A DNA stretch of 64,000 bases. Source: Oceanibacterium hippocampi (GTDB lineage Bacteria > Pseudomonadota > Alphaproteobacteria > Sneathiellales > Sneathiellaceae). Each line of letters begins with the position of its first letter. Position 1 is the stretch's first letter. The notes below the pieces were generated by a model. That model had not been told where the DNA came from, ran no database searches, and was given only the letters and a program-made list of their open reading frames with translations. Positions 3,564 to 39,578 of the stretch are shown here, in pieces. The stretch lies in contig NZ_FWFR01000004.1 in assembly GCF_900172325.1 (NCBI RefSeq), positions 1 to 64,000 of the forward strand, in the 5' to 3' direction. The translations under genes were made by a program, and so were the position numbers.

Positions 3564-3582
3564 GAGGAAACGAGGTAATCCG

Positions 3583-4515: not shown

Positions 4516-4575
4516 ATACCCACGGGGCAGCGAGCGCCGCTCCGCCATTCCCGCAAACTCAGAAATGGCCATTTC

Positions 4576-15885: not shown

Positions 15886-15927
15886 TTGACAGGTTGTATT
15901 TCGGCTGACAATTTGTCCGGACAAATA
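15886..15927 (+). promoter_or_regulatory. Promoter and GntR operator A (first TRAP operon)
   Basis: A TTGACA at 15886-15891 is followed 16 bases later by GACAAT, a plausible -10. The perfect 16-bp palindrome ATTTGTCCGGACAAAT at 15912-15927 overlaps this -10 and the expected transcript start, a position typical of repression. It lies 80 bases before the dctP start. Confidence 0.75.
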
Positions 15928-16007
15928 ATGCTGTCGGCGGTTGATACCGAAGAAACGAGGTCGCCGCCGGCATCCGACAATCATGGAAATACAGAGGGTG
16001 TCGATAG

Positions 16008-17003
16008 ATGGGACATTTTCGTCTTAGTGGGGTCGTTGCCGCGGCGATGCTCGTGGCGCTGCCCGCGTCCGCCGAAACGCTGCGTCTCGGATCGGGTTTC
16101 CAGGCCGGTCATTCCAGCGCCAAGGCCGTCGAGGAGATCTTTACGCCGGCCCTCGGGAAAATCGACGGCATGGACTTCAAGGTCCAGAATTTTCCCGGCC
16201 TGCAGCTCGGCTCCGCCGAGGAGATCATCCAGCAGACCCGCGATGGCACCATCTTCGGCGCCTATATCTCGTCGGCCTATTTCAATTCCTATGTCGCCGA
16301 GCTGGGCGCGCTCAATCTTCCCTTCGCCTTTCCCTCCCGGGAAGTCGCCTTCGAGGTCCTCGACGGGAGCGTGCGCGATCTCCTGGCCGAGAAGCTGAAG
16401 GCGGAAGGCTTCCGTTTGCTCGGGGTCATGGAACTCGGCTTCCGGCATGTCACCAATTCGGCCAAGCCGGTCACCACGCCGGATGATCTCAAGGGGATGT
16501 CGATCCGGTTGCAGCCGAATCCGATCCATATGGAGACCTTCCGGACGCTCGGCGCCAATGCGGTGGCGCTCGATGCCAGCGAACTGTTCGCCGCGCTGGA
16601 GCAGAAGGTCGTCGATGGTCAGGAGAATCCCTACGCCGTCATCGATCTGTACAAGATCTATGAAAGTCAGCAGTACGTGACCGACACGGCGCATTTCTTC
16701 GACGTCATTCTTTTCGTCGCGTCGGAGAATGTCATGGCCGGTTTCCCGCAGGAGGTGCAGGACGCCATTGCCGCCGCCGCCAGGGCGACGACGCTTCGCC
16801 AGCGGGAAATCGCCGCCAGCGAGGATGGCGAGCACAAGCGGCATCTCGCCGAACTCGGCATGCAGATCACCGAACTGACCGACGCGCAGCGGGCGCTGTT
16901 CCGCGAGGCCGTTGCCCCGGTCTATCAGAAGATGCGCACCCAGATCGGCGAAGCGTATGTCGACGAGTTCCTCGCCGCGATCGATCGGGCCTCGGGAAAT
17001 TGA
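16008..17003 (+). CDS. TRAP transporter substrate-binding protein (DctP family), system 1
   Basis: This 331-residue periplasmic protein has a signal peptide ending ALPASA at about residue 22. The arginine that pairs with the substrate carboxylate in this family is in LKGMSIRLQPNPIH, and the ALEQKVVDGQENPY signature follows. It probably delivers an organic acid to the DctQM encoded directly downstream. Its stop overlaps the TTG start of dctQ. Confidence 0.9.
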   Translation: MGHFRLSGVVAAAMLVALPASAETLRLGSGFQAGHSSAKAVEEIFTPALGKIDGMDFKVQNFPGLQLGSAEEIIQQTRDGTIFGAYISSAYFNSYVAELGALNLPFAFPSREVAFEVLDGSVRDLLAEKLKAEGFRLLGVMELGFRHVTNSAKPVTTPDDLKGMSIRLQPNPIHMETFRTLGANAVALDASELFAALEQKVVDGQENPYAVIDLYKIYESQQYVTDTAHFFDVILFVASENVMAGFPQEVQDAIAAAARATTLRQREIAASEDGEHKRHLAELGMQITELTDAQRALFREAVAPVYQKMRTQIGEAYVDEFLAAIDRASGN

Positions 17004-17524
17004 CAGCCAGGCCCCAAGCCCTGCCGGCCTGGCTCAACGTCCTGAGCCGCCGGCTGAGGCAGGCGAACGAGTGGGCCGTGATCGCCATGATGGCGGTCAT
17101 GGTCTTCGTCGTGTCGCTCGAAGTGGTGATGCGATACGTCTTCGCCTCGTCGCTGATTTTCGCCAGCGAGCTGTCGCGGCTGCTGTTCGTCTGGGTCGTT
17201 TTTCTCGGCCTGGCGCTGGCCGCGGCGAGTGGCAAGGAAGTCGCCATCCGGCTGCTTCCTGATCTGTTGAAAGCGCATTTCCGGTCCGGTCTGATCCTCG
17301 CGCTGGTCACGCGGTCCGCCGGCATCAGCCTCATGCTCCTGCTGGCGGTCGTGAACTGGGAGTTCGTGGTGGCGAACTGGCATCGGCCCTTGAACAGCAT
17401 GCCCGGCAATGCCGGTCTGTTCCACCTGCCGCTCACGATCGGCGCGGTCCTGACTGCGTTCCACCTCGCCGTGGGCGCTGTTGAGGCGATGCTCTCCCGC
17501 GCCGTCGAAAGCCCCGCGCCATGA
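17000..17524 (+). CDS. TRAP transporter small permease (DctQ family), system 1
   Basis: This 174-residue protein has four predicted membrane segments, for example WAVIAMMAVMVFVVSLEVVM and SRLLFVWVVFLGLALAAASG. MRYVF after the first helix is typical of DctQ. It starts at a TTG overlapping the dctP stop and ends overlapping the dctM ATG, so all three are translationally coupled. Confidence 0.88.
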   Translation: MTARPQALPAWLNVLSRRLRQANEWAVIAMMAVMVFVVSLEVVMRYVFASSLIFASELSRLLFVWVVFLGLALAAASGKEVAIRLLPDLLKAHFRSGLILALVTRSAGISLMLLLAVVNWEFVVANWHRPLNSMPGNAGLFHLPLTIGAVLTAFHLAVGAVEAMLSRAVESPAP

Positions 17525-18795
17525 GCGGCATCATCATCGGGCTCTTTCTCGTCATTGCCATCTTCGGCGTACCGCTCGCCTTCGCGCTCGGGATCGCCGG
17601 GTTCGCCGGCCTGGTCATCGCCGACCTGCCGCTGCGCATCCTCGCCCAGCGGGCGATGTTCTCGGTCAATTCCTTCCCGCTCATGGCCATTCCCTTTTTC
17701 ATGCTGGCCGGGGAACTGATGGTGTCGGGCGGGATCATCGGCCGGCTGATCGACTTCGCGAACATCCTGATCGGGCGGGTTCGCGGCGGCCTCGCCCAGG
17801 TGACCGTTGGCGCCGGTATGGGCATGGCCTCGGTCTCGGGCGCGGCGATCGCCGACGCGACGGCGCTGACCTCGGTCCTCTATCGCCCCGTCGCCAAGCA
17901 ATACAACGGTCCCTTCGCGGCGGCGGTCATCGCCGCGTCGGCCAATCTCGGGCCGATCCTGCCGCCGTCCACCGCGATGATCATCTATGCGACGCTGGCG
18001 CCGGGGGTCTCGGTCCGTTCGCTCTTCATGGCCGGCGTCATACCGGGGCTGATGATCGGCGTGCTGATGATGCTCACGATCGCGATCATCGCCCATCGCC
18101 GGGGGCTGCCTCTGACCGGCGACCGACTGACCCTGGTACGCCTCGTCCGGGGTTTCTGGACGGCCCTGCCGGTCCTGCTGCTCCCGGTGATCGTGATCGG
18201 CGGAATCGTCGGCGGGATGTTCACGGCGACGGAGGGCGGCGCGATCGCGGTCGTCTACTCGCTCGTCGTCGGGCTGTTCGTGACCCGTACGTTGAAGCTC
18301 GCCGATCTGCCCGGCTGCCTGCTGCGGTCGGCCATCACCACCGCGATCATCGGTGTCATCATCGCCTTCGCGGCGACGATTACCTACCTTTTCACGATCG
18401 ACCTGCTGCCCCAGCGGCTGGCCGACTTCGCGCTCGCCTTCACCGACAGCCGGGTGATCTTCCTGGTCTTCATGATGGGCGCGCTGATGATCGTCGGCAT
18501 GTTCCTGGAGCCCAATGCCGCCTACGTGATGCTCGTCCCGGTACTGGCACCGCTGGCCAGCGAGTTCGGTGTCGATCCGCTTCACTTCGCCATTCTCTTC
18601 GTCCTCAACATGGTCGTCGGTCTGCTCACCCCGCCGGTCGGAACGCTTCTGTTCGTGGTTTCCGCCATGACTGAGGTGCGGATCGGGGAACTGGTGCGCG
18701 AGCTGCTGCCGTTCATCGGCATCCAGTACGGCGTCATGCTGGCCTGCCTGTTCCTGCCGCCGCTCGCGCTCTGGCTGCCGGGCATGCTGTCGTGA
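17521..18795 (+). CDS. TRAP transporter large permease (DctM family), system 1
   Basis: This 424-residue protein has about 12 membrane segments. Family markers include FPLMAIPFFMLAGELM, ASVSGAAIADATALTSVL, ILPPSTAMIIYATLAPGVSV and GLLTPPVGTLLFV. It is the Na+- or H+-coupled channel subunit working with the preceding DctPQ. Confidence 0.9.
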   Translation: MSGIIIGLFLVIAIFGVPLAFALGIAGFAGLVIADLPLRILAQRAMFSVNSFPLMAIPFFMLAGELMVSGGIIGRLIDFANILIGRVRGGLAQVTVGAGMGMASVSGAAIADATALTSVLYRPVAKQYNGPFAAAVIAASANLGPILPPSTAMIIYATLAPGVSVRSLFMAGVIPGLMIGVLMMLTIAIIAHRRGLPLTGDRLTLVRLVRGFWTALPVLLLPVIVIGGIVGGMFTATEGGAIAVVYSLVVGLFVTRTLKLADLPGCLLRSAITTAIIGVIIAFAATITYLFTIDLLPQRLADFALAFTDSRVIFLVFMMGALMIVGMFLEPNAAYVMLVPVLAPLASEFGVDPLHFAILFVLNMVVGLLTPPVGTLLFVVSAMTEVRIGELVRELLPFIGIQYGVMLACLFLPPLALWLPGMLS

Positions 18796-18871
18796 GGCGG
18801 CTTTCCCCCGATCGCGCGCTACGGGCGAGTTCCCGCCGAATACACGAATTCCCGCTGCAGGAGATCAGCCG

Positions 18872-19642
18872 TTGAACCTATCCGATACGCTCGGACATCG
18901 TGCCAAGATCGGCATCATCGTTCCGTCGACCAATACTGTCGTGCAGCCGGAACTGGACGACATGCGCCCGGTCGGCGTGACCAATCACGTCGCCCGGATG
19001 GCGATCGCGAATACCCCGTTGCGTTCGAACGCGGATTTCGAGGCGCTCGTTGCCGCGCTGCTCAAGTCGCAGGACGCGGCCATCGAGAGTGTCATGTCGT
19101 GCGCTCCCGACCACCTGGTTCTCGGGCTGTCGACGGAAACCTTCTGGGACGGGGCGGACGCCGGCCGCCGGGCGACCGATAGCCTGCGCGCGGCGCTCGG
19201 GGTCGGCGTCAGTGCGGCGGCTGACGCGCTGGTCGATCTGTTGCACGAGTCCGGCCTGCGACGGATCGCCATTCTCACGCCTTACCAACCGGTCGGCGAC
19301 GATCGGACAACCGGGTTCTTCACCCAGTCCGGCTTCGACGTCGTCAGGACGGTCGGACTGCGCTGCGGGAGCCCGGTGGAAACCGCGATGGTGCCGCGCC
19401 GGCAACTTATCGCGGCCCTGCACGAGCTGGCCGATGCGAAACCGGAGGCGATCGTCCAGGTGGGTACGAATCTGCCGATGGCAGGTCTGGCGCGTGAAGC
19501 CTGCGACTGGCTGGGCCTTCCGGTTCTGGTGGCGAACACCGTGCTGTACCGACACGCACTCAAGGCGCTTGGCCTGCTCGAGGCTGACAACTTTCGAAAC
19601 ATGTTCATGGGCTGGACCGCGCCGGGTGCGGGCGAGCGGTGA
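18872..19642 (+). CDS. Asp/Glu racemase-fold protein (maleate isomerase / arylmalonate decarboxylase-like)
   Basis: This 256-residue protein has the family's substrate-binding PSTNT at the N-terminus (IIVPSTNTVVQPEL), HLVLGLSTETFWDG in the middle and VQVGTNLPMAGLAREA near the C-terminus. Characterised relatives carry catalytic cysteines in the last two segments; here both positions read without Cys. This matches a TRAP-associated branch whose chemistry is not settled. It is 76 bases after dctM and probably in the same operon, so it may act on the imported acid. Confidence 0.75.
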   Translation: MNLSDTLGHRAKIGIIVPSTNTVVQPELDDMRPVGVTNHVARMAIANTPLRSNADFEALVAALLKSQDAAIESVMSCAPDHLVLGLSTETFWDGADAGRRATDSLRAALGVGVSAAADALVDLLHESGLRRIAILTPYQPVGDDRTTGFFTQSGFDVVRTVGLRCGSPVETAMVPRRQLIAALHELADAKPEAIVQVGTNLPMAGLAREACDWLGLPVLVANTVLYRHALKALGLLEADNFRNMFMGWTAPGAGER

Positions 19643-19685
19643 TCCGCCTGTCAGCACCTCGCGCAATTCGCCTCGTGCGGATGCA

Positions 19686-19733
19686 ATTTGTCCGGACAAA
19701 TACATTGACGGTGTCGGGTCGCGTCCCTATCGT
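19686..19733 (+). promoter_or_regulatory. GntR operator B and promoter of TRAP system 2
   Basis: The perfect palindrome ATTTGTCCGGACAAAT covers 19686-19701. Directly after it come TTGACG at 19705-19710 and, 17 bases on, TATCGT at 19728-19733. Here the operator sits just upstream of the -35, unlike sites A, D and E where it covers the -10. It is 69 bases before the dctQ start. Confidence 0.7.
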
Positions 19734-19770
19734 TCTCGCGTGAACCGTCAGGGATGAAGGCACGTACCAA

Positions 19771-20364
19771 ATGCCACCGAAAACCATGATAGAGACGCTC
19801 GCCTGGACCTGTTCGATATGGTTCGCCCGCGTCGGGGGCGCGTTGATCGTGCTGATTGCCGTGCTCGTGTCCGGCGACGTCGTGGCGCGCAACCTGATCA
19901 ATCAGACGGTCTTCAACTCCTTCGAGATCAGCATCTATCTGTTCGGTGCGGCGGTCACTTTCGGCTTCGCCCATACGGCACTGACCGGCGCGCACATCCG
20001 TATCGATGTCATCTACAGGCTGTTTCCGGTGGCCGTTCGTCGTGTTCTCGACTCGCTCGCCCTGTTGAACCTCGCCGCGCTGGCGATGTTCTTCGCCTTC
20101 CATGCCTGGAGCCTCGCGCTGGACAATCTCGGGCGCGGGGTGATGTCGAATTCCGCCCTCGCCGTTCCTCTCTACATCCCGCAGATGGCCTGGGCGCTCG
20201 GGCTGACGGCCTTTACCCTCAGCGCCATCCTGCTGACGGTCCAGCACGGGATGCTTTTGTCGCGGCGTGCCTTCGACGAGGCCGACCGCATCGCCGGTCT
20301 CAGCAGTGCGGCGGAAGAGGCGGGCAGCGAGGTTGCCGAGGCCTCGGGCCAAGGGCGGGGCTGA
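19771..20364 (+). CDS. TRAP transporter small permease (DctQ family), system 2
   Basis: This 197-residue protein has four membrane segments (for example VGGALIVLIAVLVSGDVVAR and FEISIYLFGAAVTFGFAHTA). GAHIRIDVIY is the usual DctQ motif between helices 2 and 3. Its TGA overlaps the dctM ATG by one base. The last 25 residues are polar. Confidence 0.88.
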   Translation: MPPKTMIETLAWTCSIWFARVGGALIVLIAVLVSGDVVARNLINQTVFNSFEISIYLFGAAVTFGFAHTALTGAHIRIDVIYRLFPVAVRRVLDSLALLNLAALAMFFAFHAWSLALDNLGRGVMSNSALAVPLYIPQMAWALGLTAFTLSAILLTVQHGMLLSRRAFDEADRIAGLSSAAEEAGSEVAEASGQGRG

Positions 20365-21653
20365 TGGTTGTCGTACTGATTGTCGTCCTGTTCGGCCTGC
20401 TGGCGCTCGGGCTGCCTGTCGCCGTGGCGTTGACCGCGCTGGCGCTCACGCTCGATCATTTCTATTCCTTCTTTCCGTTGCTGCCGGCGCTCGGCGAGAT
20501 GCTGTGGGGCGGATCGACGAACTTTGCCCTGATCGCGGTGCCGCTCTTCATCCTGACCGGCGAACTGCTGCTCGGGTCCGGCATCGCGCACGACATGTAT
20601 GACGCCATAGACCGTTGGGTCCGGCGGGTTCCGGGCGGGCTGCTGCACACCAATATCGCGTCGAGTGCGCTGTTCTCCGCGACATCGGGCTCTTCGGTTG
20701 CGTCTGCCGCGACGATCGGAACGGTAGCAATCCCGCAGATGAAGGCGGGCGGCTATCATCCGCCGCTGTTCCTGGGCTCGATCGCCGCCGGGGGGACGCT
20801 CGGCATCCTGATTCCACCGTCGATCAACATGATCATCTACGGCGTCCTAGCCGAAGTCTCGATCGGCCGTCTCTATCTCGCGGGTCTCATTCCGGGGCTG
20901 CTGCTTGCCGCGCTGTTCTCGCTGATGGTGCTGGTCCTCTGTGCGCTCCGGCCCGGGCTCGGCGGTAACCGGGAAATCCCGACAAGCTGGCGCGAGCGGA
21001 TTGCCGGCCTGCCGGCGCTGCTGCCGCCACTGATGCTGTTCATCCTGATGGTCGGCTCGATCTACCTGGGGATCGCGACCCCGACCGAGGCGGCAGGGCT
21101 CGGCTTTCTCGGCGCAGTCATCCTGACCGCCATGCGTCGCCGCCTGACCGTGGCGCTGCTGATGCACGCTTTCGAGCGGACCATGAAGACCACCTGCATG
21201 GTGATGCTCATCGTGATTGCCGCGCTGCTGGTGAATTTCGTCATGGTGAGCATCGGCCTGTCCGGCCAGATCCGCGACTTCGTGGGCAGTCTCGCGCTTC
21301 AGCCGATCGTCGTGATGCTGATCCTGATCGCCACATACCTGGTGCTCGGATGCTTCATGGAGACCCTGTCGCTGATGATCGCGACGACGCCGATCGTGGT
21401 GCCGATCATCGTGGCGCTCGGTTACGACCCGCTGTGGTTCGGTGTCCTGTTCATGGTGCTGATCGAGGCGGCCCTGATCACGCCCCCGATCGGTGTCAAC
21501 CTCTTCGTCGTCCAGTCGGTTCGCAGCGAAGGCCCGTTCCGCGACGTCACCATCGGCTCACTGCCGTTCCTTCTGATGATGCTCTGCCTCATCGGATTGC
21601 TGCTCGCCTTTCCCGAACTCGCCTCGTGGCTGCCCGCCGCGGTGCGTGGCTGA
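20364..21653 (+). CDS. TRAP transporter large permease (DctM family), system 2
   Basis: This 429-residue protein has FALIAVPLFILTGELLLGSG, ATSGSSVASAATIGTVAIPQ, GILIPPSINMIIYGVLAEVS and ALITPPIGVNLFVVQSV, all diagnostic of DctM. The ATG at 20364 overlaps the dctQ stop; the reading frame is open upstream to 19818, but that part is a shadow of dctQ. It works with the DctQ before it and the DctP after it. Confidence 0.9.
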   Translation: MVVVLIVVLFGLLALGLPVAVALTALALTLDHFYSFFPLLPALGEMLWGGSTNFALIAVPLFILTGELLLGSGIAHDMYDAIDRWVRRVPGGLLHTNIASSALFSATSGSSVASAATIGTVAIPQMKAGGYHPPLFLGSIAAGGTLGILIPPSINMIIYGVLAEVSIGRLYLAGLIPGLLLAALFSLMVLVLCALRPGLGGNREIPTSWRERIAGLPALLPPLMLFILMVGSIYLGIATPTEAAGLGFLGAVILTAMRRRLTVALLMHAFERTMKTTCMVMLIVIAALLVNFVMVSIGLSGQIRDFVGSLALQPIVVMLILIATYLVLGCFMETLSLMIATTPIVVPIIVALGYDPLWFGVLFMVLIEAALITPPIGVNLFVVQSVRSEGPFRDVTIGSLPFLLMMLCLIGLLLAFPELASWLPAAVRG

Positions 21654-21696
21654 ATACTCCAAAACCGAACAGAGTTAGAACAGGAGATCTGGGTAC

Positions 21697-22737
21697 ATGA
21701 AACGACTGCTTGCTGCCGCGATACTCGCCAGCGTTACCGGGGCGTCGCCTCTACTGGCGGCCGATCTGCCGAAGACGGCCGTCAACGTGGTCGGCAACCT
21801 GAGCATCACCACCCAGAGCCGGAACCTTGAGGCGCCGTTCTGGCAGGAGGGGGTCGTCAAGGCGTCGAACGGTGCCGTGACCGCGAACTTCCGCCCGTGG
21901 AACGAGATGGGGCTGAAGGGGCCGGAAGTATTCGGCTTCCTCGGCAAGGGGGTGATGAATATCGCCACTGCCCAGCTCGGCCATCATTCCGGCGCGGCGC
22001 CGATCAATGACGGCAACGATCTCGCCGGCCTGTCGAAGACCTTCGACGAGTTCAAGGCGGCTTCGGTGGCCTTCTTCCCGGCGCTCTCGGATTACTACCG
22101 GAAGGAACTCGGACTGCACCTGATCGCGCTGCAGTCCTACCAGAGCCAGATCATGTATTGCCGCGATCCGATTTCCGGCCTTTCCGATCTCAAGGGCAAG
22201 CGCATCCGCTCTTCCGGCGCTTCCCAGGCCGACTTCATCAATCACTTCGGCGGGTCCGGTGTCGATGTCGCGTTCGGCGAGGTCCAGCAGGCGCTGGAGC
22301 AGGGCGTGATCGACTGCGCCATCACCGGTACGCTCGGCGGCTATACCGCGCGCTGGCATGAATCGGCGCGCCATCTGTACACCTTGCCGATCAATTTCGG
22401 CTCCGGCGCGACCGTCGCCAATGCCGCCTGGTGGGACGGTCTCGATCCGGCAGTTCGCAGCTTCCTGACCGAGCAGATCGAAGCGCTCTCCGAAGAGATG
22501 TGGGCCCTCAATCGCAAGGAGAACGAGATCGGCATCAACTGCAACACGCAGGGTCCGTGCCCGCTCGGTGAGCCGGCCGGCATGACCCGCGTCGAGCCGA
22601 GCGAGGCCGATTTCGAACTGCGGCGGGAAGCGCTGGTCAACGCCGTCCTGCCCGGTTGGGTGGCGCGCTGCGGCGATGTCTGCAAGACCGCCTTCAACGA
22701 TCACCTTGCCGAGGTCACCGGATTGACCATCCAGTAA
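21697..22737 (+). CDS. TRAP transporter substrate-binding protein (DctP family), system 2
   Basis: This 346-residue protein has a signal peptide (residues 1-22, ending SPLLAA). The carboxylate-pairing arginine is in DLKGKRIRSSGASQADFINH, and the later motif reads ALEQGVIDCAITGTLGGYTA. Gene order is Q-M-P, opposite to system 1. A four-cysteine C-terminal half (INCNTQGPCPLG, RCGDVCKTAF) suggests disulfides. A strong terminator follows. Confidence 0.88.
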   Translation: MKRLLAAAILASVTGASPLLAADLPKTAVNVVGNLSITTQSRNLEAPFWQEGVVKASNGAVTANFRPWNEMGLKGPEVFGFLGKGVMNIATAQLGHHSGAAPINDGNDLAGLSKTFDEFKAASVAFFPALSDYYRKELGLHLIALQSYQSQIMYCRDPISGLSDLKGKRIRSSGASQADFINHFGGSGVDVAFGEVQQALEQGVIDCAITGTLGGYTARWHESARHLYTLPINFGSGATVANAAWWDGLDPAVRSFLTEQIEALSEEMWALNRKENEIGINCNTQGPCPLGEPAGMTRVEPSEADFELRREALVNAVLPGWVARCGDVCKTAFNDHLAEVTGLTIQ

Positions 22738-22760
22738 GGCACGCAAGACTTGTTGCGGCC

Positions 22761-22801
22761 AGGGCTCCGGCGCTCGAGAGAGACCGGAGCCCTTGTCGTT
22801 T
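22761..22801 (+). terminator. Intrinsic terminator of TRAP system 2
   Basis: A perfect 10-bp stem, AGGGCTCCGG and CCGGAGCCCT, surrounds a 13-base loop and is followed by TGTCGTTT. It lies between two convergent genes. Confidence 0.75.
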
Positions 22802-22822: not shown

Positions 22823-24181
22823 TCAGCGCAGTCCGCGATGCAGGTCGGCGGCGATGCCGAGAATGCGGGCTTCCCCGTAGGGGCGGCCAACGAGCTGGGC
22901 CGAACAGGGCCTGTCGCCGTCCGGCGCCGGCAGTGGAAAGGCCACCGCGGGAAGACCGGCGATATTGGCGAGTGCCGTGAAATCCGCCTGGTTGGCGGGG
23001 GCCGGAGTGCCGTGCGGGAAGGCCCGCTGGGGTGCCGTCGGCAGGACCATGACATCGATGCCGCGCATCGTTTCCAGGGCCGCGAGACGCAGTCGATCCA
23101 GTTCCCAGTAGGCGCGCGCAAGCTTCTCCGCTGGCGCCTTGCAACCATATTCGAGCATGCCGAGGAAGGCCCCGGAGAAGGCGGCGGGCGTGGCCTCGAT
23201 CCTGCTTCGTATCAGGCTGCCGCATTCGGCCTCGCTGATCAGCAGGCCGTAGCGGCGGGCCCGTCCCGGCTCCCAGCCCTCGACGGAGACCTTATGCAGC
23301 CGGTAGCCGGCCTCCCTTGCCCGCTCCAGCACGCTCTCGAACGCCTCGAGCACGGCATCCTCGCAGGTGGCGAGCGCCGCGATATCCGGGTAGCCGATGC
23401 GGATATCGGACGGGACCGGGCGGTTGTCCGGCGTCATCGACCAACCGGCGGGCGCAGTGCCGCTCGCCGCATCACGCGGGTCGGGTCCGGCGAGGATACC
23501 AGTATAGAGCGCGAGGTCGTTGGCGTTGCCGGCAAGGGGGCCGATGCTGTCCAGCGTCCAGGACAGATAGGCGAGCCCGCCGGTACCGATCAGGCCACGT
23601 GTTGGCTTCAAGCCCCAGACGCCGCAATAGGCGGCGGGAATGCGCACCGAACCCATCGTATCCGTGCCGAGTGTCGCAGCGACGATGCCACCGGCAACCG
23701 CCGCGCCCGAGCCGCCACTCGATCCGCCGGGCGTATGTCCCGGGGCGGCCGGGTTCTCGCAACGGCCCCAGAACGGGTTGTCGGTGGTCGCGCCGAGCGC
23801 GCCCTCGTGCAGGTTGAGCTTGCCGAGGATGACCGCGCCGGCGGCGCGCAGCCGGGCGACGACGGTCGCGTCCTGTCCGGCCGGGGCGGTTGCATCGCCG
23901 CGCGCGCCCATGGTGGTGGTAACGCCGGCGACGTCGATGTTGTCCTTGATCGCGACCGGAATGCCGTCGGCGGGGCCGAGCGTCGTGCCGGCCTCGCGCC
24001 GGGCATCGCTGCGGGCCGCCTCGGCGAGCGCCTCTTCCCCCTGGACCGAAATGAAGATCGCCGTCCGCGGATTCTCGGCGGCGATCCTCTCGAGGGCGGT
24101 CCGGGTCAGCGCCAGCGAGGTCGTTTCGCCCTGTTCCAGCGCCCGGCGCATGGCGCCGGCGGAAATCGGCCCGCCGTTCAC
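22823..24181 (-). CDS. Amidase signature family enzyme
   Basis: This 452-residue protein has the catalytic Ser-cisSer-Lys set: lysine in VAIKDNIDVAGV, the Ser-rich loop GGSSGGSGAAVAGG, and the nucleophile region LGTDTMGSVRIPAAYCG, where Met replaces a usual Gly. It hydrolyses an amide to a carboxylate and ammonia. It begins with GTG in a GTGA overlap with the upstream ligase gene and is third in the PrpD-ligase-amidase operon. A half-amide made by the PuuE-like hydrolase of the same regulon is a possible substrate; this is an inference. Confidence 0.88.
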   Translation of the reverse strand: MNGGPISAGAMRRALEQGETTSLALTRTALERIAAENPRTAIFISVQGEEALAEAARSDARREAGTTLGPADGIPVAIKDNIDVAGVTTTMGARGDATAPAGQDATVVARLRAAGAVILGKLNLHEGALGATTDNPFWGRCENPAAPGHTPGGSSGGSGAAVAGGIVAATLGTDTMGSVRIPAAYCGVWGLKPTRGLIGTGGLAYLSWTLDSIGPLAGNANDLALYTGILAGPDPRDAASGTAPAGWSMTPDNRPVPSDIRIGYPDIAALATCEDAVLEAFESVLERAREAGYRLHKVSVEGWEPGRARRYGLLISEAECGSLIRSRIEATPAAFSGAFLGMLEYGCKAPAEKLARAYWELDRLRLAALETMRGIDVMVLPTAPQRAFPHGTPAPANQADFTALANIAGLPAVAFPLPAPDGDRPCSAQLVGRPYGEARILGIAADLHRGLR

Positions 24182-25575
24182 GCCTCCGCGTCCCGCTTGT
24201 CGAGCAGGCGGATCGGCTTCTGCCGCATCTCGATCTGGGTGAGCGGGGCGAGCGCACCCGGCGCCGCCAGCGAAACCCCGATATCGACCCCGAAGCGGGT
24301 CCGCAGCAGCTGCTCGAACGCCGTCGTGGAGGAATTCAGATCGCCGCGGGTTTCGATGTGAACGACCATCTCGTCGCGGCCGTCCCGGCGCACGACCTCG
24401 CAGATATATTCGCTCATCAGTTCCGGGTGCGCTTCGGTCAGGACCGCGCCGATCCCGGTCGGGTAGATGTTGATGCCGCGCAGCTTGACCATGTTGTCGC
24501 TGCGTCCGAGGAAGCCGGCGATCCGCCGCAGGTTGAGCCCGAGCGGCGACGAGTCGGTCTGGAACCGCGACACGTCATGGGTATTGAAGCGGATGATGGG
24601 GAAGATATCGTCCTTGAACAGGCAGGTGCAGACCATGTCGCCGGTCTCGCCGTCCGCAACAGGGTCGCCCGTGGCGATGTCGAGAATCTCGAGGAACTGC
24701 GCGTCCTCCTGCACATAGAGACCGGACCGGTCGGGGCCTTCGCCGGCGATCGCGCCGGTATCGCCAACGCCATACCAGTCATACACCTTGGCCCCGCCCC
24801 AGGCCGCCGACATGCTCTCGGCGCTCTCCGCGCCAAGATGGCCGGAGATCGTCCGGATCGGCAGATCCTTGCCCGGCTCCAGCCCCATCTCGCGGGCGAC
24901 GTCCGACAGGCGCTTGATGTAATCGCCGAAGCCGATGATCGCGGTGGCGCGGAACTCCTTCATCAGTGTCACCTGGTTCGTCGAACGCGTTTCGACCCCG
25001 GTGCCGGCACTGAGCAGGGGAGCGCCGATCCAGTGCAGGATGGCTTCGCGGACATAGTGGCCGCCATTGACCATGCCGTGCCCGTAGACCGAGTGGATGA
25101 CGTCATCGCCGGTAATGCCCTGCAGGGCGTAAAAGCGCGCCAGAAGGAGGTTCTGGATCTCGCGGCTCTTCGGCCCGTAGAGCAGCGGCTGCGGTTTCCC
25201 GGTGGTCCCGCTCGTGGTCTGGAAAACGAGCGGCGGGCGATGCTGCTCGTCATAGGACGCGCGTCCGTCGAAATCGCCGATCGGCGGATGGGCCTCGACC
25301 GACTGCATCAGGTCGGACTTCGAATAGGTCGGCAGGCGGACGATATCGTCGAGGGACCGGATATCGCCCGGCTCGATTCCCGCCGCGCCCCAGAGGCGGC
25401 GATAGAAGGGAACCTTCCAGGCGCGTGCCATGACCGACTTGAAACGGGTCTCCTGGCGGGCCCGCAAGGCATCGCGGGACAAGGCGCGGAAGGCTTCCGC
25501 GAAGCTCTCGGGTCGCCCGTAGTCACGGATGATGCCCGGATAATCCATCGCGTCGAAATAGTTGGGTCGAGACAT
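24178..25575 (-). CDS. Phenylacetate-CoA ligase-like AMP-forming acyl-CoA ligase
   Basis: This 465-residue PaaK-type adenylating enzyme has the P-loop FQTTSGTTGKPQPLLYG, the adenylate-binding region KVYDWYGVGDTGAIAGEG, and the hinge/lysine region SDNMVKLRGINIYPTGIGAV. It activates an acid to its CoA ester with ATP. The substrate pocket cannot be read here, and an aromatic acid is not implied by the neighbours. It lies between a PrpD gene and an amidase gene and overlaps the latter by four bases. Confidence 0.87.
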   Translation of the reverse strand: MSRPNYFDAMDYPGIIRDYGRPESFAEAFRALSRDALRARQETRFKSVMARAWKVPFYRRLWGAAGIEPGDIRSLDDIVRLPTYSKSDLMQSVEAHPPIGDFDGRASYDEQHRPPLVFQTTSGTTGKPQPLLYGPKSREIQNLLLARFYALQGITGDDVIHSVYGHGMVNGGHYVREAILHWIGAPLLSAGTGVETRSTNQVTLMKEFRATAIIGFGDYIKRLSDVAREMGLEPGKDLPIRTISGHLGAESAESMSAAWGGAKVYDWYGVGDTGAIAGEGPDRSGLYVQEDAQFLEILDIATGDPVADGETGDMVCTCLFKDDIFPIIRFNTHDVSRFQTDSSPLGLNLRRIAGFLGRSDNMVKLRGINIYPTGIGAVLTEAHPELMSEYICEVVRRDGRDEMVVHIETRGDLNSSTTAFEQLLRTRFGVDIGVSLAAPGALAPLTQIEMRQKPIRLLDKRDAEA

Positions 25576-25613: not shown

Positions 25614-26975
25614 CTAACTGGCGGCGCGGAGTGCTTCGCCGAGAAGGGTCTTGAGGCGCGCAACCGGGGCATCGTCGGCGAGGTCGAGCGCCGCTTCGAT
25701 CAGCCGGTCGCCCATCGCGGCGTCGAGGCCGGAATGGGCCATCAGCTGGCGGGATTTTCGCAGCACCGCGTCGCGCGACATCGGATTCTCGGAATCGCCC
25801 CAGGCGTCGTCGATGGTCCGTTCCAGGCGTTGGCCGTTCTTGAGCACCACGGTGACGGCGCTTCCGAAATGACGGGGATACGCGGCGGTGAACGCTGCCG
25901 ACCGCTGCACGGTCGCAAGGCGGCGGAGGGCCGCGACCGGCTCACGGCCCAGGGCGTCCGGGGCGAAGGCCTCCATCGCGGGGGGGCCGTCGACAAGGGC
26001 GACCGCGACCGAATGCTGGAGACTGAACTTGGCTTCCGTTTCGGTATGCGGTTCGGCGCGATCACAGAAGGTCACCGCGTCGCCGTAGGTCGCGATCTCG
26101 ATGGCGGCAATGGCGTCGAGCGGGGTGCTCCCGCGCAGTGCGAGGGCGGCGTCAATGGCGGGATGTGCATGACGGCAGGCCGGCCAGGGTTTGAAACTGG
26201 TGTCGTGGATCTGCCAGGGCGCATCAGGCTCGGCAAGCACGGCGGCGGGATCGCCGCCTTCACCGCACAGCGCCCGGAAGAAGCCCTGCGGTCCCTCGAG
26301 AATGAAGCGCGGGCCGGTCAGGCCGGCGTCCGCGAGCGCCGCTGCGGCGGCTCCGTTCCGCGAGGCTTCGGCGCAATGAAAGGGCTTGGTCATGACCGGT
26401 TCGTGCCGGCACTGCCAGAGCCCGCCGCTGACGCTGACGGCATTGCCTGCCGCCGAGACAAGTCGTTCATGCGAAAGCCCGAGAAGGCTGCCGGCGGCAA
26501 TCGCCGCGCCGAACCCGCCGCAGCTTGATGTGTTGTGGAAGTAAGCGTAATGGTCCGGTCCGACCGCGCGGCCGAGCCGGATCATCGCCTCGTAGCCCCG
26601 CACCACGGCGTCGAGAAAGGCCATGCCATTCCTACCGTTCGATGCCGCGAGCGTGGCCGGCAGGATGACGGGGCCGGGATGAAGCAGGGCGGTGCGGTGC
26701 ACGTCATCCATTTCGAGGATGCTGCCGAGGCCGCCGAGCCCGAAGGCCAGGGCGTTCATGTCGGCCAGCCGCGGGCGGCCGTGCCCGGCGAACAGCGAGG
26801 GGGCGAGCCCATCCGCCAGGATTGCCCCTGCTTCGCTCCCGTGGCCGGCGAGGGCGCAGCCCAGCCAGTCGACGAGGTGAAGCGCCGCGCGCGCGCGGGT
26901 GTCGGGTGCGACGGGGCGGCCGATCTGCTGCACCAACCGTTCGACCACTCCGGCCGATTGCCCGTCCACGTTCAC
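25614..26975 (-). CDS. MmgE/PrpD family protein, copy 1
   Basis: This 453-residue protein has the MmgE/PrpD fold: LHLVDWLGCALAGHGSEAGA at the N-terminus, AFGLGGLGSILEMDDVHRTA, and FKPWPACRHAHPAIDAALAL in the C-terminal half. Known members are 2-methylcitrate dehydratase and cis-aconitate or itaconate-related decarboxylases. It is first in the operon that also encodes the ligase and amidase, reading away from operator C. A second family copy is at 34160-35557. Confidence 0.85.
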   Translation of the reverse strand: MNVDGQSAGVVERLVQQIGRPVAPDTRARAALHLVDWLGCALAGHGSEAGAILADGLAPSLFAGHGRPRLADMNALAFGLGGLGSILEMDDVHRTALLHPGPVILPATLAASNGRNGMAFLDAVVRGYEAMIRLGRAVGPDHYAYFHNTSSCGGFGAAIAAGSLLGLSHERLVSAAGNAVSVSGGLWQCRHEPVMTKPFHCAEASRNGAAAAALADAGLTGPRFILEGPQGFFRALCGEGGDPAAVLAEPDAPWQIHDTSFKPWPACRHAHPAIDAALALRGSTPLDAIAAIEIATYGDAVTFCDRAEPHTETEAKFSLQHSVAVALVDGPPAMEAFAPDALGREPVAALRRLATVQRSAAFTAAYPRHFGSAVTVVLKNGQRLERTIDDAWGDSENPMSRDAVLRKSRQLMAHSGLDAAMGDRLIEAALDLADDAPVARLKTLLGEALRAAS

Positions 26976-27006: not shown

Positions 27007-27035
27007 TTGACCCGAAAATTTGTCCGGACATATTT
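27007..27035. promoter_or_regulatory. GntR operator C between divergent operons
   Basis: ATTTGTCCGGACATAT at 27018-27033 differs from the perfect palindrome at one base. TTGACC at 27007-27012 and CATATT at 27029-27034 form a possible promoter toward the CoA-transferase and gntR genes, with the operator filling the spacer and part of the -10. It is 42 bases from the PrpD start on the other side, so it can control both directions and gives autoregulation. Confidence 0.7.
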
Positions 27036-27084: not shown

Positions 27085-28323
27085 ATGCGGATGATGACGG
27101 CTATCGAAGCGGCGAGGCTGGTCAAGCCGGGCGACACGGTCTTCCTAGCCGGGTGCTGCGGCGAGCCGGCCGCGGTGCTCGAGGCCGTCGAGGCCGATCC
27201 GGAACTCTGGCACGACGTGCATATTATCGGGGCCTTCATCCCGGGAGTAAACGTCCGCAACTACGCGGCGCTGGGGCGCGGCACGCGGGTCTCGACGACC
27301 TTCGCGACGCCGGCGCTCTCGGCGCCGGAGAATGGCGGGCGGGTCGGACATCTGCCCGTTCACTACAGCGATCTGGACCGTCTTCTCGCGCAGCCGGGTT
27401 TCGTCGATATCGGTTTCGTGCAGGTGCCGCCGCCGCGCCCGGACGGGAGGGTGTCGTTCGGACTGACCGTCGATTTCCTTCCCTCTGTCGCCCGGGCGGG
27501 CGCCCGGCTCGTCGCCCTGATCAATCCCGCGATGCCCGATCCGGTCGACGGCCCGACGCTTCCGGTCGACCGCTTCGAGGGTTTCGTCGCGGTCAACACC
27601 GATCTGCCCAGTTACGATGCGGGCCCGCTCGACGAGACGGTGCTGGCCGTCGCCGCCCATGTCGCCGGGTTGATCGAACCCGGGGATACGCTGCAGCTCG
27701 GCCTGGGCAAGATGCAGGCAGCGATCCTGCAGCGGATCGACGGCCATCGGGGACTCGGCTTCCATGGCGGGATGATCTCGACGCCGATCGCCGCGGCGCT
27801 GCGGAACGGTGTCTTCTCCGCCGGTATCACCACCGGTGTCGCCCTCGGGACGCCGGACTTCTACCGCATGATCACCGACTATCCCCGGATCGCCTTTCGG
27901 CCGGTCGGCGTGACCCATGGCCAGGCCGCGATCGCGGCCATCCCGCGCTTCACCGCCGTCAATTCCGTGCTCCAGGTGGACTTGTACGGCCAGGCGAACG
28001 CGGAGATGATGGGGCGGCGCCAGGTGAGCGGCCAGGGCGGGCTCGTCGACTTCGTCCGCGGCGCCCGTCAGTCGGAAGGCGGCAAATCGATCCTGGCGCT
28101 GCCATCGACCGCGAGCGGCGGAACCGTCAGCCGGATCCAGCCGACACTCGCCGCCGGCGCGCCGGTGACGGTGGCGCGTGCCGACGCCGACCTGGTGGTC
28201 ACGGAATTCGGCGTGGCCAGGCTCCGGCATGCATCGATAGACGAACGGGCGGAAGCGCTCATCTCCATCGCCAATCCCTCATTTAGAGATTGGCTTCGCG
28301 CGGAATGGCAGTCAAAACGATAA
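27085..28323 (+). CDS. CoA-transferase of the acetyl-CoA hydrolase / 4-hydroxybutyrate CoA-transferase family
   Basis: This 412-residue protein has an N-terminal domain with VKPGDTVFLAGCCGEPAAVL and a C-terminal domain with LGFHGGMISTPIAAAL, DLYGQANAEMMG (the expected catalytic glutamate) and VVTEFGVARLRHAS. It moves CoA between acyl groups through a glutamyl-CoA intermediate. RipA of the Yersinia itaconate pathway belongs to this family, so an itaconate-like C5 acid is a possible acceptor. It is cotranscribed with gntR 42 bases downstream. Confidence 0.87.
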   Translation: MRMMTAIEAARLVKPGDTVFLAGCCGEPAAVLEAVEADPELWHDVHIIGAFIPGVNVRNYAALGRGTRVSTTFATPALSAPENGGRVGHLPVHYSDLDRLLAQPGFVDIGFVQVPPPRPDGRVSFGLTVDFLPSVARAGARLVALINPAMPDPVDGPTLPVDRFEGFVAVNTDLPSYDAGPLDETVLAVAAHVAGLIEPGDTLQLGLGKMQAAILQRIDGHRGLGFHGGMISTPIAAALRNGVFSAGITTGVALGTPDFYRMITDYPRIAFRPVGVTHGQAAIAAIPRFTAVNSVLQVDLYGQANAEMMGRRQVSGQGGLVDFVRGARQSEGGKSILALPSTASGGTVSRIQPTLAAGAPVTVARADADLVVTEFGVARLRHASIDERAEALISIANPSFRDWLRAEWQSKR

Positions 28324-28365: not shown

Positions 28366-29139
28366 ATGGGTAAGACGACACCTGCTCAGGCCGCCACACG
28401 GGGCGAGTCGCGGCGCTATTATCAGGTGAGTAACATCCTCATGCAGCGCATCGAGGAGGGGGTCTACAAGCTCGGTGAACTGCTGCCGACCGAGGTCGAA
28501 CTGTGCGAGGAGTTCGAGATCAGCCGCTATACCGTGCGGGAGGCGCTGCGCCGGCTGATCGAGGCCGGCCTGGTGACCCGTCGGCAGGGTTCCGGGACGC
28601 AGATCATCGCGACCCAGAAATACACCAACTACGCCCACACGATGCGCTCATTGAGCGAACTGTTCGAGTATGCGTCCGATACGGTGATCAGTTTCGACCT
28701 GATCGAGGAACGCCTGCCCGCGCCCGAGCTCGCCCGCCATTTCGGCGACCGGGCGGAGGAAAGCTGGCTGTACATGGAAGGCGTCCGTACCGACCGGGAA
28801 GGCAAGCGGCCGATCTGTTTCACGCGCGTCTTCATCGACACCCGCTTCAACGGTATCGTCGGCGAACTGCAATCCCACGGCAGCGCGATCTACGCGCTGA
28901 TCGAGGACCGCTACAAGATCAATGTCGACGATGTCGAGCAGGAGATCCGGGCCTTGCCGATCACCAAGGCGGCGGCCAAGAAACTCGACGTGCCACAGCG
29001 GGAATACGCGGTCCAGATGGTGCGGCGCTATGTCAGCAGCGAAGGAAAACTGATCCTCGTCTCGATCAGCGATCACCCGAGCTCGCGCTTCTCCTACACG
29101 ATGCATCTGCGCCGCGAAGGCATGAAAGGGTCGAGCTAG
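28366..29139 (+). CDS. GntR family regulator, HutC/UTRA type; candidate repressor of the TTGTCCGGACAA regulon
   Basis: This 257-residue protein has a GntR winged helix (residues 15-85, LLPTEVELCEEFEISRYTVR, LVTRRQGSGTQI) and a UTRA effector domain at about 100-250 (SWLYMEGVRTDREGKRPICF, VQMVRRYVSSEGKLILVSIS). GntR proteins bind palindromes of the form GTnnnnAC, which fits TTGTCCGGACAA. It is the only GntR gene inside the 15.9-40.7 kb cluster and its operon starts at operator C, hence the proposed link. Assignment of the six sites is an inference. Confidence 0.85.
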   Translation: MGKTTPAQAATRGESRRYYQVSNILMQRIEEGVYKLGELLPTEVELCEEFEISRYTVREALRRLIEAGLVTRRQGSGTQIIATQKYTNYAHTMRSLSELFEYASDTVISFDLIEERLPAPELARHFGDRAEESWLYMEGVRTDREGKRPICFTRVFIDTRFNGIVGELQSHGSAIYALIEDRYKINVDDVEQEIRALPITKAAAKKLDVPQREYAVQMVRRYVSSEGKLILVSISDHPSSRFSYTMHLRREGMKGSS

Positions 29140-29152
29140 CCGCCCGAAGTCC

Positions 29153-30277
29153 CTACTTTCCCGGGATCTTACGTGGCGCGTAATGGTCGGTATCAGCGCC
29201 CAGTCGCGGCAATGAGAAATCGAGCTTCGCGGGTTCGTTGCGGAATTTCACCGGGCAGCCGATATGGAGATTTCCATCTTCGTCACGGAGCAGCATCTCG
29301 CGGTGTCGGACATGGTCGCGGTGAAACGCCTCGTGCAGGTCGAGGACCGGCGCGAAGCAGATATCCTTGCCGGCGAACCATGCTTCCCAGTCATCCCGGG
29401 TCCGTGAACGGAAGGTCGCCCGCAGGAATTCCTTGACCGGGTCCTGGCCGGGGCCGGGCGCGCCGCAGGCAGTCTCGATCAGGTCCTGCCGCTCAAGGGC
29501 GGTCAGGAGATTGACCGCGAACTTCTTCTCGACGCCACCCAGTACGATGTATCGGTCGTCAGCGGTTTCGTAGGTGTTGTAAAGCGCGTAACCGCCGAAG
29601 GAGCGTTCCTCCTTGACCCGCGGCGGCCGGTTCTCGGCAAAGACCGGACCGACCACGTTGGGCAGCCACGCCATCGTCGAATCCTGCATGGAGATGTCGA
29701 TATAATCGCCCTGGCCTGTCCGCTGGCGCCCGATAAGGGCCATCAGGACGCCGGCCAGCGCGGTGTAGGAACCGGCCATGTCCGCCACGGGCATGTGCGG
29801 GTTGGTCGGTTTGCCGTCGGCCCCCAGGTTGAGCGAGACCACGCCCGAGAGCGCCTCGATGGCGATGTCGTGGGCCGGGCGTTGCGCGTCCGGCCCGTCC
29901 TGCCCGAAGGCCGATATCGAGACATAGACAATGCCGGGATTGATCGCGCGAAGGTCATCGTAGCCGATGCCGAGCCGGTCCATGACGCCGGGCCTGAAGG
30001 CCTCGACCAGGACGTCGGCGGTCTTCGCGAGCGCCAGAAAGGCCTCGCGATCCGTCTTGTCCTTCAAATTGAGAACGATGCTCTTCTTCCCGCGATGGGT
30101 ATTGCGGAACCAGACGCTCTCGCCGTTGGCACGGTAGCCGACGCGGCGGACCGGTTCGCCCTCTCCCGGCGGTTCGAGCTTGATGATCTCGGCGCCCTGA
30201 TCGCCCATCATCTGGGTCAGCATCGGACCCGGCAGGAACTGCGACAGGTCGAGTACGCGGATACCTTCCAGCTTCAT
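29153..30277 (-). CDS. CaiB/BaiF family CoA-transferase, copy 1
   Basis: This 374-residue class III CoA-transferase has LDLSQFLPGPMLTQMMGDQG and IKLEPPGEGEPVR at the N-terminus, FRPGVMDRLGIGYDDLR, and the catalytic aspartate expected in MPVADMAGSYTALAG. It transfers CoA between carboxylic acids without a ping-pong release. It is the last gene of the seven-gene operon, 12 bases after copy 2. Pairs of CaiB genes may form heteromers or act on different acids. Confidence 0.88.
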   Translation of the reverse strand: MKLEGIRVLDLSQFLPGPMLTQMMGDQGAEIIKLEPPGEGEPVRRVGYRANGESVWFRNTHRGKKSIVLNLKDKTDREAFLALAKTADVLVEAFRPGVMDRLGIGYDDLRAINPGIVYVSISAFGQDGPDAQRPAHDIAIEALSGVVSLNLGADGKPTNPHMPVADMAGSYTALAGVLMALIGRQRTGQGDYIDISMQDSTMAWLPNVVGPVFAENRPPRVKEERSFGGYALYNTYETADDRYIVLGGVEKKFAVNLLTALERQDLIETACGAPGPGQDPVKEFLRATFRSRTRDDWEAWFAGKDICFAPVLDLHEAFHRDHVRHREMLLRDEDGNLHIGCPVKFRNEPAKLDFSLPRLGADTDHYAPRKIPGK

Positions 30278-30289
30278 GGTCGTTCCATC

Positions 30290-31525
30290 TCAGATGATCT
30301 TCCGGGCGCGGAGATCCGCGATCTCCGCGTCGCCATAACCGAGTTCATTCAGGATGCCCTTCGTGTCGGCGCCAAGCATCGGCGCCGGCCGGGCGGCGAG
30401 CCGCTCGCCGTCGACGCGGATCGGGTTCGATACCGCGCGGAAATCCGCCTTGAGAGGATGGGCGATCGTCTGGATGCCGCCTTGCTGCTGGAAATAGGGA
30501 TTGTCCAGCGCGCCGGCCAGGTCCAGCACCGGTGCGACAGGGAGATGACCCTGCATCAGCGCCATCCATTCCGCCGTCGTCTTCTCGCCCAGACGCGCGT
30601 CCAGGTGATCGACCAGCAGATCGCGATTGTCGAAGCGGTCACGCGGTGTGGTGAACCGCGGATCGTCGAGCCAGGCAGGACGCTCGATGATGGCGCAGAG
30701 CCGCTCCCAGAACTTCTGCTGGACGCACATGATGAAGATATGGCCGTCCCGGGTCGGGAACAGCTCGCAGGGGACCGCCGACGGGTGGCCCGAGCGCGGC
30801 CGGCGTCCGGTTGCCTCGCCGGCGTTCAGATACCAGGTCGCCGGATAGGTAAGCTGATGCATGGCCACGTCGTAGAGCGTGACGTCGATATCGCGGCCCT
30901 TGCCCGTGCGCGCGGCGCCGAGCAGCGCGGCGGTCATCGCGAAGGCGGTCGTGATGCCGGTCAGGTAATCGACGACGGACAGGCCCATGCGAGTCGGAAC
31001 CTGGCCCGGCTCGCCGGTGAGCGCCATGAAGCCGGCTTCCGCCTGGAGCAGATAGTCGTACGCCGGCCAGTTGGCGCGTTCACCGGTGCGGCCGTAACCG
31101 GACAGATGGGCGCAGATGATTCCGGGCTTGATGTCGCCGAGCGTCGCGTGGGTCAGGCCGAGCTTGTCGGGCAGATCGCCCCGCAGGTTATTGACCACCG
31201 CGTCGGCGGTGCCGACGAGGCGGTGAAAGATCGCCCGTCCCTCGGCCGACTTGATGTCGAGCTGCATGCTCTTCTTGCCGAGATTGAAGGCCTGGAAGAA
31301 CTGGCTCTCGTTGTCGCCCAGGAAATGGGCGCCGGCCTGGCGCGCGCTGTCGCCGCCGGGCGATCGCTCGGTGGCCGGCGGTTCGATCTTGATGATCTCG
31401 GCGCCCATGTCCCCGAGGTAAAGCGTCCCGAACGGGCCCGCCCCATACTGCTCGACGGCAATGACACGAATGCCGGCCAGCGGCAGTGCGCCCCTGGCCG
31501 GCTCGTTCGCGGACGTCCCCGTCAT
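30290..31525 (-). CDS. CaiB/BaiF family CoA-transferase, copy 2
   Basis: This 411-residue class III CoA-transferase has VIAVEQYGAGPFGTLYLGDM, IKIEPPATERSPGG and the probable catalytic aspartate in LSVVDYLTGITTAFAMTAAL. The ATG at 31525 shares the sequence TAATG with the stop of the acyl-CoA dehydrogenase gene, so I reject the longer frame from 31600. The succinyl-CoA:itaconate CoA-transferase of Pseudomonas aeruginosa is of this family and sits in a similar gene set. Confidence 0.88.
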   Translation of the reverse strand: MTGTSANEPARGALPLAGIRVIAVEQYGAGPFGTLYLGDMGAEIIKIEPPATERSPGGDSARQAGAHFLGDNESQFFQAFNLGKKSMQLDIKSAEGRAIFHRLVGTADAVVNNLRGDLPDKLGLTHATLGDIKPGIICAHLSGYGRTGERANWPAYDYLLQAEAGFMALTGEPGQVPTRMGLSVVDYLTGITTAFAMTAALLGAARTGKGRDIDVTLYDVAMHQLTYPATWYLNAGEATGRRPRSGHPSAVPCELFPTRDGHIFIMCVQQKFWERLCAIIERPAWLDDPRFTTPRDRFDNRDLLVDHLDARLGEKTTAEWMALMQGHLPVAPVLDLAGALDNPYFQQQGGIQTIAHPLKADFRAVSNPIRVDGERLAARPAPMLGADTKGILNELGYGDAEIADLRARKII

Positions 31526-32706: not shown

Positions 32707-32721
32707 CCTTCCGCGGCGGGG

Positions 32722-36532: not shown

Positions 36533-36574
36533 ATTTGTCCGGACAAATTCATCGGAGCGGGGAGGGTTTGTCAA
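36533..36574 (-). promoter_or_regulatory. Promoter and GntR operator D (seven-gene operon)
   Basis: The perfect palindrome ATTTGTCCGGACAAAT covers 36533-36548. On the minus strand TTGACA (36574-36569) is followed 17 bases later by TGAATT, which runs into the palindrome, so the operator covers the -10 edge and start site. The first gene begins at 36440. Confidence 0.75.
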
Positions 36575-36607: not shown

Positions 36608-36647
36608 TTGACTTCGAGAGGCCCGCGCCGATCTTGTCCGGACAAAT
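36608..36647 (+). promoter_or_regulatory. Promoter and GntR operator E (enoyl-CoA hydratase)
   Basis: TTGACT at 36608-36613 stands 17 bases before ATCTTG. The 12-bp core TTGTCCGGACAA lies at 36634-36645, overlapping that -10; the outer bases deviate on the left side. It is 31 bases from the proposed GTG start and 99 bases from operator D, centre to centre. Confidence 0.7.
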
Positions 36648-39549: not shown

Positions 39550-39578
39550 GCCGAGATCCGCCCTGTATCAGTTTTCCC

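Follow-up and report, generated by a model that had tools for sequence, protein, structure and literature searches.

A predicted GntR regulon with three TRAP carriers of separate ancestry in Oceanibacterium hippocampi

The DNA analysed here, the first 64,000 nucleotides of contig NZ_FWFR01000004.1 of Oceanibacterium hippocampi (RefSeq assembly GCF_900172325.1) and hereafter called the window, contains three carriers of the tripartite ATP-independent periplasmic (TRAP) type, a set of catabolic genes and the gene of a GntR/UTRA regulator, among which copies of a short palindrome recur. We discuss whether these elements form one regulon, which evidence connects the palindrome with the regulator and what the presence of three carriers may signify.

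Three TRAP carriers and a shared palindrome

A sequence-only reading of this DNA had proposed three complete TRAP transporters, each accompanied by a copy of one palindrome, and both propositions hold. Pfam searches recovered all P, Q and M parts, namely a periplasmic DctP together with the DctQ and DctM parts of each system, in open and uninterrupted frames, and the gene orders differ: P-Q-M in carrier 1 (16008-18795), Q-M-P in carrier 2 (19771-22737) and a fused QM with a divergent P in carrier 3 (37510-40645). The range given in that reading (15912-22801) covers the first two carriers and leaves the third outside. The genes of the carriers are the following.

16008-17003 (+), DctP1, TRAP solute-binding protein (Pfam DctP 8.7e-70; pocket triad R146/R167/N207)
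17000-17524 (+), DctQ1 (Pfam DctQ)
17521-18795 (+), DctM1 (Pfam DctM)
18872-19642 (+), Asp/Glu-racemase-superfamily enzyme, arylmalonate decarboxylase/EutA-like, last gene of the carrier-1 operon (Pfam Amdase 6.8e-10)
19771-20364 (+), DctQ2 (Pfam)
20364-21653 (+), DctM2 (Pfam; start codon inferred, overlapping the dctQ2 stop)
21697-22737 (+), DctP2 (Pfam; pocket signature Q/R/T)
37510-39549 (-), fused DctQ-DctM, membrane protein of carrier 3 (Pfam)
39638-40645 (+), DctP3 (Pfam; pocket signature Q/R/T)

The sequence TTGTCCGGACAA is found in the control region of each of the three systems. The palindrome TTTGTCCGGACAAA has three exact copies, at 15912, 19687 and 36534, and three one-mismatch copies, at 27019, 36633 and 39608; carriers 1 and 2 have exact copies and carrier 3 an imperfect one. 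The site also fronts two catabolic divergons, one with the copy at 27019 and the other with those at 36534 and 36633. The six predicted operators are listed below.

15911-15926, ATTTGTCCGGACAAAT, before dctPQM-1
19686-19701, ATTTGTCCGGACAAAT, before dctQMP-2
27018-27033, ATTTGTCCGGACATAT, between the PrpD1-ligase-amidase and CoA-transferase-gntR operons
36533-36548, exact copy, puuE-like side of the divergon
36632-36647, TCTTGTCCGGACAAAT, enoyl-CoA hydratase side of the divergon
39607-39622, AATTGTCCGGACAAAT, between divergent dctQM-3 and dctP-3

Each site in the window is intergenic or immediately 5' of a start codon; the 36633 site precedes its gene because the start of the enoyl-CoA hydratase is taken as GTG 36676, as alignment to the family suggests. 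At carrier 1, a TTGACA hexamer resembling a -35 box lies at 15886 and candidate -10 positions overlap the operator. The carrier-3 copy (39608-39621) is common to the divergent dctQM and dctP genes and ends 16 bp ahead of the dctP ATG. With up to three mismatches, the palindrome gave seven matches against 1.17 ± 1.12 in shuffled sequences, and none of 100 shuffles scored as high. Over the whole genome (4.83 Mb), TTGTCCGGACAA has six copies, five of them inside the window, and the 16-mer at no more than two mismatches has seven, six of which span 24 kb of the window. The Poisson probability of at least five sites per 24 kb, calculated with the background rate doubled, is near 1e-12. The seventh genomic site (C7:160348) was rejected as a member of the regulon, being chance-like: it carries two mismatches in the 16-mer and lies 3' of an MscS-type gene with a terminator-like hairpin adjoining.

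The regulator and its distribution among relatives

The cluster has a single GntR/UTRA gene, located 3' of the CoA-transferase gene and likely in one operon with it, the 27019 site standing at the head.

28366-29139 (+), GntR/UTRA (HutC-type) regulator, predicted repressor of all six sites (Pfam GntR 7.2e-21, UTRA 2.5e-11)

The protein combines the same GntR helix-turn-helix and UTRA effector domain as the members of the HutC subfamily (HutC, TreR, PhnF, NagR/DasR) but scores below every NCBIfam equivalog cut-off, and its predicted operator is TTTGTCCGGACAAA. Genomes of the same class, 385 in number, were searched for the GntR protein (E≤1e-25) and for ATTTGTCCGGACAWAT. A relative of the regulator is present in 38 genomes and the site in 11, all of which fall within the 38 (Fisher p=2e-12). 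Nearly all of the 11 have the site next to gntR or in its vicinity; G039 and G171 have it instead in front of the CitE-MaoC-dehydrogenase genes of a second locus. The 25 genomes of a sister genus lack the GntR regulator and hold only scattered single 14-mers, in three of them.

The divergent promoter of gntR and the PrpD operon carries the site in Tistrella, G217, G091, G198 and G293. At this promoter the asymmetric copy ATTTGTCCGGACATAT is identical in the eight loci compared and always points the same way, with its odd half leading directly into a TATA-like -10 box (TATAAT in G217, TATACT in Tistrella). An asymmetric copy abutting the -10 box in eight loci fits a repressor that overlaps its own promoter and suggests that the asymmetry may be kept by the promoter. 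The co-occurrence of site and regulator makes the GntR/UTRA protein at 28366-29139 the well-supported prediction for the regulator of the sites. In G184 (L047 10720-10737), the variant ATTTGTTCGAACAAAT stands in place of the CCGG form beside a more diverged GntR, a possible case of repressor and operator changing together.

Across Tistrella, G217, G091, G198, G293, G184, G039 and G171, the recurring members of the gene set are gntR, the CoA-transferase, PrpD, the PaaK-like ligase and the amidase, together with the acyl-CoA dehydrogenase, MaoC hydratase, CitE lyase, two CaiB proteins, enoyl-CoA hydratase and PuuE-like enzyme. Their operon arrangements vary from genome to genome, and the operator fronts many of them. 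On pTM2 of Tistrella mobilis (annotated record NC_017966) the set lies in two parts separated by about 450 kb, each with operators: the first comprises GntR/CoA-transferase divergent from PrpD1-ligase-amidase, and in the second one operator precedes puuE-like-dctQ-dctM-dctP-PrpD2 and another, separately, the next genes in order, dehydrogenase-CaiB2-CaiB1. The transporter of this second part is the counterpart of carrier 2 (DctM 61%, DctP 58% identical), and since it lies under the operator, carrier 2 is an independently confirmed member of the predicted regulon. A carrier-2 counterpart is also found directly 3' of the operator in G217, where the dehydrogenase operator is followed by what appears to be an operon that includes a second TRAP of another lineage; DctM2 has counterparts of 58-62% identity in Tistrella and G217 as well as in further relatives.

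Other observations concern these relatives. The pTM2 counterpart of CaiB1 (L111 18115-19210) is annotated as two overlapping pieces and looks frame-shifted; the matches in G186 and G058 are continuous. In G198 and G293 (L070-L074), operators also precede a gene of about 156 codons and a small membrane-protein gene, and the stretches examined contain no counterpart of the TRAP genes of the window. Genes for MFS and TonB-receptor proteins lie nearby and were rejected as operator-controlled carriers, as the operators front other genes.

Ancestry and binding pockets of the carriers

Pairwise identity among the three carriers is 24-27% for the DctPs and 30-39% for the DctMs. In a maximum-likelihood DctP tree of 57 rows, which includes the other DctPs of the same genome (36 in total), DctP1, DctP2 and DctP3 are placed in different branches and DctP1 groups with canonical DctPs. 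To judge by these sequences, the three carriers are of independent origin, and tandem duplication is ruled out by the tree and the low identity. The phylogeny thus bears out the earlier view that recent tandem duplication was unlikely, and the companion proposal of one regulator acting through one operator, still a prediction, receives strong support from comparative genomics, through the co-occurrence of site and GntR and the recurrence of the site before the same genes.

The only close paralogue of any carrier belongs to carrier 2 and is found at a distant locus, C6:850 kb (DctP 70%, DctM 71%). It is the sister of DctP2 in the tree, the next closest being the proteins of the Tistrella regulon. 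The locus around it (C6:845-851 kb; L146 4900-11450) combines the carrier-2-type TRAP with genes for a racemase-superfamily protein, CaiB and, judged from sequence without a family search, a lyase and an isochorismatase-type protein; no operator is present. The genome as a whole is very rich in TRAP systems, with 36 DctP genes in 4.83 Mb.

Pocket residues were assigned to SiaP numbering through a motif spacing that we assume to apply here. On this mapping, the equivalent of Arg147 is kept in all three DctPs and in 33 of the 36 of the genome, and the pocket signature is the canonical R/R/N in DctP1 and Q/R/T in both DctP2 and DctP3. The possibility that DctP2 and DctP3 have no carboxylate arginine is ruled out, as the Arg147 equivalent is there and only the Arg127-type position differs. 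The Arg147-type arginine is described as a carboxylate selectivity filter and is reported in 96.8% of the family (PMC4646407). Because it is kept, each DctP probably binds an acid, and because R/R/N stands against Q/R/T, there are probably at least two pocket types. DctP2 and DctP3 have weak similarity to 2pfy (3.3e-11 and 1.7e-15), which together with 2pfz we take to be the two Bordetella DctPs crystallised with pyroglutamate. Two such Bordetella proteins with pyroglutamate have been described (PMC5812351).

Compared with SiaPQM, DctPQM and YiaMNO, the systems of the window are alike in having complete P, Q and M parts, one of them as a fused QM, and the Arg147 equivalent throughout; they differ in that three phylogenetically separate systems stand on one operator, and in the Q and T that replace R and N in DctP2 and DctP3. 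The two signatures are consistent with several related substrates or a mixture of them. Plain redundancy, or unrelated carriers recruited in succession, would give the same picture.

A catabolic regulon and the alternatives

The enzymes encoded between and beside the carriers are as follows.

22823-24181 (-), amidase-signature enzyme, possible half-amidase, core member (Pfam Amidase 3.2e-92)
24178-25575 (-), phenylacetate-CoA-ligase-like (PaaK-like) AMP-forming ligase (AMP-binding_C_2; 56-67% identical in the core cluster of relatives)
25614-26975 (-), MmgE/PrpD protein 1 (Pfam)
27085-28323 (+), acetyl-CoA hydrolase/4-hydroxybutyrate CoA-transferase family (Pfam; PDB 2oas 4.5e-66)
29153-30277 (-), CaiB-type CoA-transferase 1 (Pfam)
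30290-31525 (-), CaiB-type CoA-transferase 2 (Pfam; PDB match)
31525-32706 (-), acyl-CoA dehydrogenase (63-79% identical in relatives)
32722-33252 (-), MaoC-type hydratase, mesaconyl-CoA-hydratase-like (Pfam MC_hydratase 8.9e-25; PDB 8hgn 1.8e-36)
33249-34166 (-), CitE-type lyase (PDB 3qll, citrate-lyase-like and presumably RipC, 5.5e-40; start uncertain, 34163 or 34094)
34160-35557 (-), MmgE/PrpD protein 2 (PDB cis-aconitate decarboxylase 3.7e-29)
35550-36440 (-), PuuE-like/polysaccharide-deacetylase-fold amidohydrolase (71-72% identical and under the operator in Tistrella)
36676-37479 (+), enoyl-CoA hydratase (start inferred, GTG 36676)

The best PDB matches of CaiB are an entry annotated as formyl-CoA transferase and SUGCT, and the MaoC hydratase matches beta-methylmalyl-CoA dehydratase and the mesaconyl-CoA hydratase family. 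The racemase-superfamily enzyme of carrier 1 (18872-19642) has a counterpart in the G217 cluster. It scores below the curated NCBIfam cut-offs (46.5 of 318 and 44.8 of 225 bits) and no cysteine column is invariant among seven relatives, which rules out a canonical maleate isomerase. Outside the operator cluster, at 3520-5571, a second PuuE-like gene is followed directly by an asparaginase-family gene.

The closest published parallel is the itaconate/methylsuccinate cluster Ict-Ich-Ccl-Mcd-Msi of Cupriavidus necator and Pseudomonas aeruginosa, which comprises CaiB, MaoC, CitE, acyl-CoA dehydrogenase and MmgE/PrpD proteins (PMC12290011). All five enzyme families are found together at 29153-35557, matched at the level of family. 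Beyond these, the window has one CaiB and one PrpD more, a CoA-transferase of the 4-hydroxybutyrate type, the PaaK-like ligase, the enoyl-CoA hydratase, the amidase and the PuuE-like enzyme, besides the three TRAP carriers and the GntR operator; its PrpD residues also differ from those of the isomerase of that cluster. Another parallel is the HxnM/HxnN imidase and amidase pair of nicotinate breakdown in Aspergillus (PMC9304392): the window likewise pairs an amidohydrolase of the polysaccharide-deacetylase fold with an amidase-signature enzyme ahead of acid catabolism, but the former is PuuE-like and not HpPgdA/imidase-like.

We consider it fairly probable that the region constitutes one GntR regulon made of six operators, the regulator's own operon, two catabolic operon pairs and three independent TRAP carriers. 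From the observed genes and sites, the co-occurrence of site and regulator and the separate ancestry of the carriers, we infer the direction of regulation, the inducer, the substrates and the flux as follows. The GntR/UTRA protein would sit on operators of the TTTGTCCGGACAAA type at 15912, 19687, 27019, 36534, 36633 and 39608 and repress its own operon, both catabolic operon pairs and the three carriers. The operators would be freed by an inducer, which is probably either the substrate or a CoA ester formed early in the pathway. The carriers would import small organic acids, DctP1 through a canonical dicarboxylate/sugar-acid-type pocket and DctP2 and DctP3 through another type. The extra amidase and PuuE-like enzyme, which would probably open cyclic or open-chain amides, suggest that amides or small cyclic amides may be the form in which the acids come in or are generated. 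The ligase or the CoA-transferases would turn the resulting substituted C4-C6 dicarboxylic acids into CoA esters, which the acyl-CoA dehydrogenase and MaoC protein would oxidise and hydrate and CitE would cleave, by the same logic as in itaconate/methylsuccinate breakdown.

Several observations weigh against this reading. Among the 38 GntR-bearing genomes, no relative of DctP3 was found at E≤1e-30 and none of DctP1 above 36% identity, and the predicted membership of carriers 1 and 3 rests on the sites of the window. At 19687, simple promoter occlusion as the mode of repression is less obvious because the operator sits upstream of the best -35-like hexamer. The PaaK-like ligase and the enoyl-CoA hydratase are without a place in the published five-gene pathway. 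Neither PrpD has all six methylsuccinate-isomerase residues, judged by residue spacing in an alignment of two sequences and given in IDS-epimerase numbering (H85/D or E88/H99/H150/K198/K266): PrpD2 lacks the equivalents of H150 and K198 and PrpD1 that of H85, the catalytic His and the K266 equivalent being present in both. These absent residues rule out PrpD2 as a standard methylsuccinate isomerase. Finally, imide opening by the PuuE-like protein is a guess, since this protein scores below the PuuE cut-off (261.5 of 424.6 bits, NCBIfam TIGR03212) and is closer to PuuE than to HpPgdA-type imidases (1z7a 9.6e-74 versus 3qbu 4.4e-12); as TIGR03212 is a domain equivalog, the low score only lowers the claim.

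The alternative that survives best, which we regard as doubtful, is redundancy: the three carriers would move the same acid or acids at different affinities or under different conditions, the operator having accumulated as each was acquired. The carrier behind the operator does vary with lineage (Tistrella and G217 have carrier 2, G217 also the second TRAP lineage), DctP2 and DctP3 have the same Q/R/T signature, and 36 DctP genes were available in the genome to draw on; the R/R/N triad of DctP1 and its canonical grouping nevertheless argue for at least two ligand types. It is unlikely that the carriers serve unrelated substrates, each with its own main regulator and with GntR adding no more than a shared layer of control. 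Relatives of the carrier-1 racemase-superfamily gene adjoin carrier-2-type TRAPs that have no operator (C6:850 kb, L148), so that carrier and enzyme appear usable outside the regulon, but, to judge by the open frames and translations of the window, none of the three dct operons has a dedicated regulator gene next to it, and the operator density over 24 kb is far above background. That the palindrome is another repeated element, such as a restriction-type site, a mobile-element remnant or the site of an unlinked regulator, is very improbable, for although the core TCCGGA, itself a palindrome, is common and three of the 25 sister-genus genomes, all of which lack GntR, have single 14-mers, the 16-mer is confined to genomes with a GntR relative, the placing is intergenic before the same genes across genera, the asymmetric copies at the gntR promoter are exact in eight of eight loci and the flank is rare, with only seven sites in 4.83 Mb.

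Returning to the single GntR regulon, the literature search found no multi-TRAP regulon of comparable kind, and the 12-mer matched no bacterial regulator there, its sole match being an unrelated Drosophila paper. The well-supported prediction is new in its details and ordinary in kind. Tentatively, it may represent an undescribed alphaproteobacterial GntR regulon for a CoA-dependent pathway of cyclic imides or half-amides of alkyl-substituted succinates, in which the operator would serve as a docking address for unrelated carriers that differ by lineage, with three TRAP families in this organism. A predicted regulator and operator can now be named for a widespread catabolic gene set, and one repressor, one 16-mer and three binding proteins would give a direct handle on the substrate. 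The same operator stands before different carriers in different lineages, and the window makes a case for asking why three unrelated high-affinity carriers share one switch.

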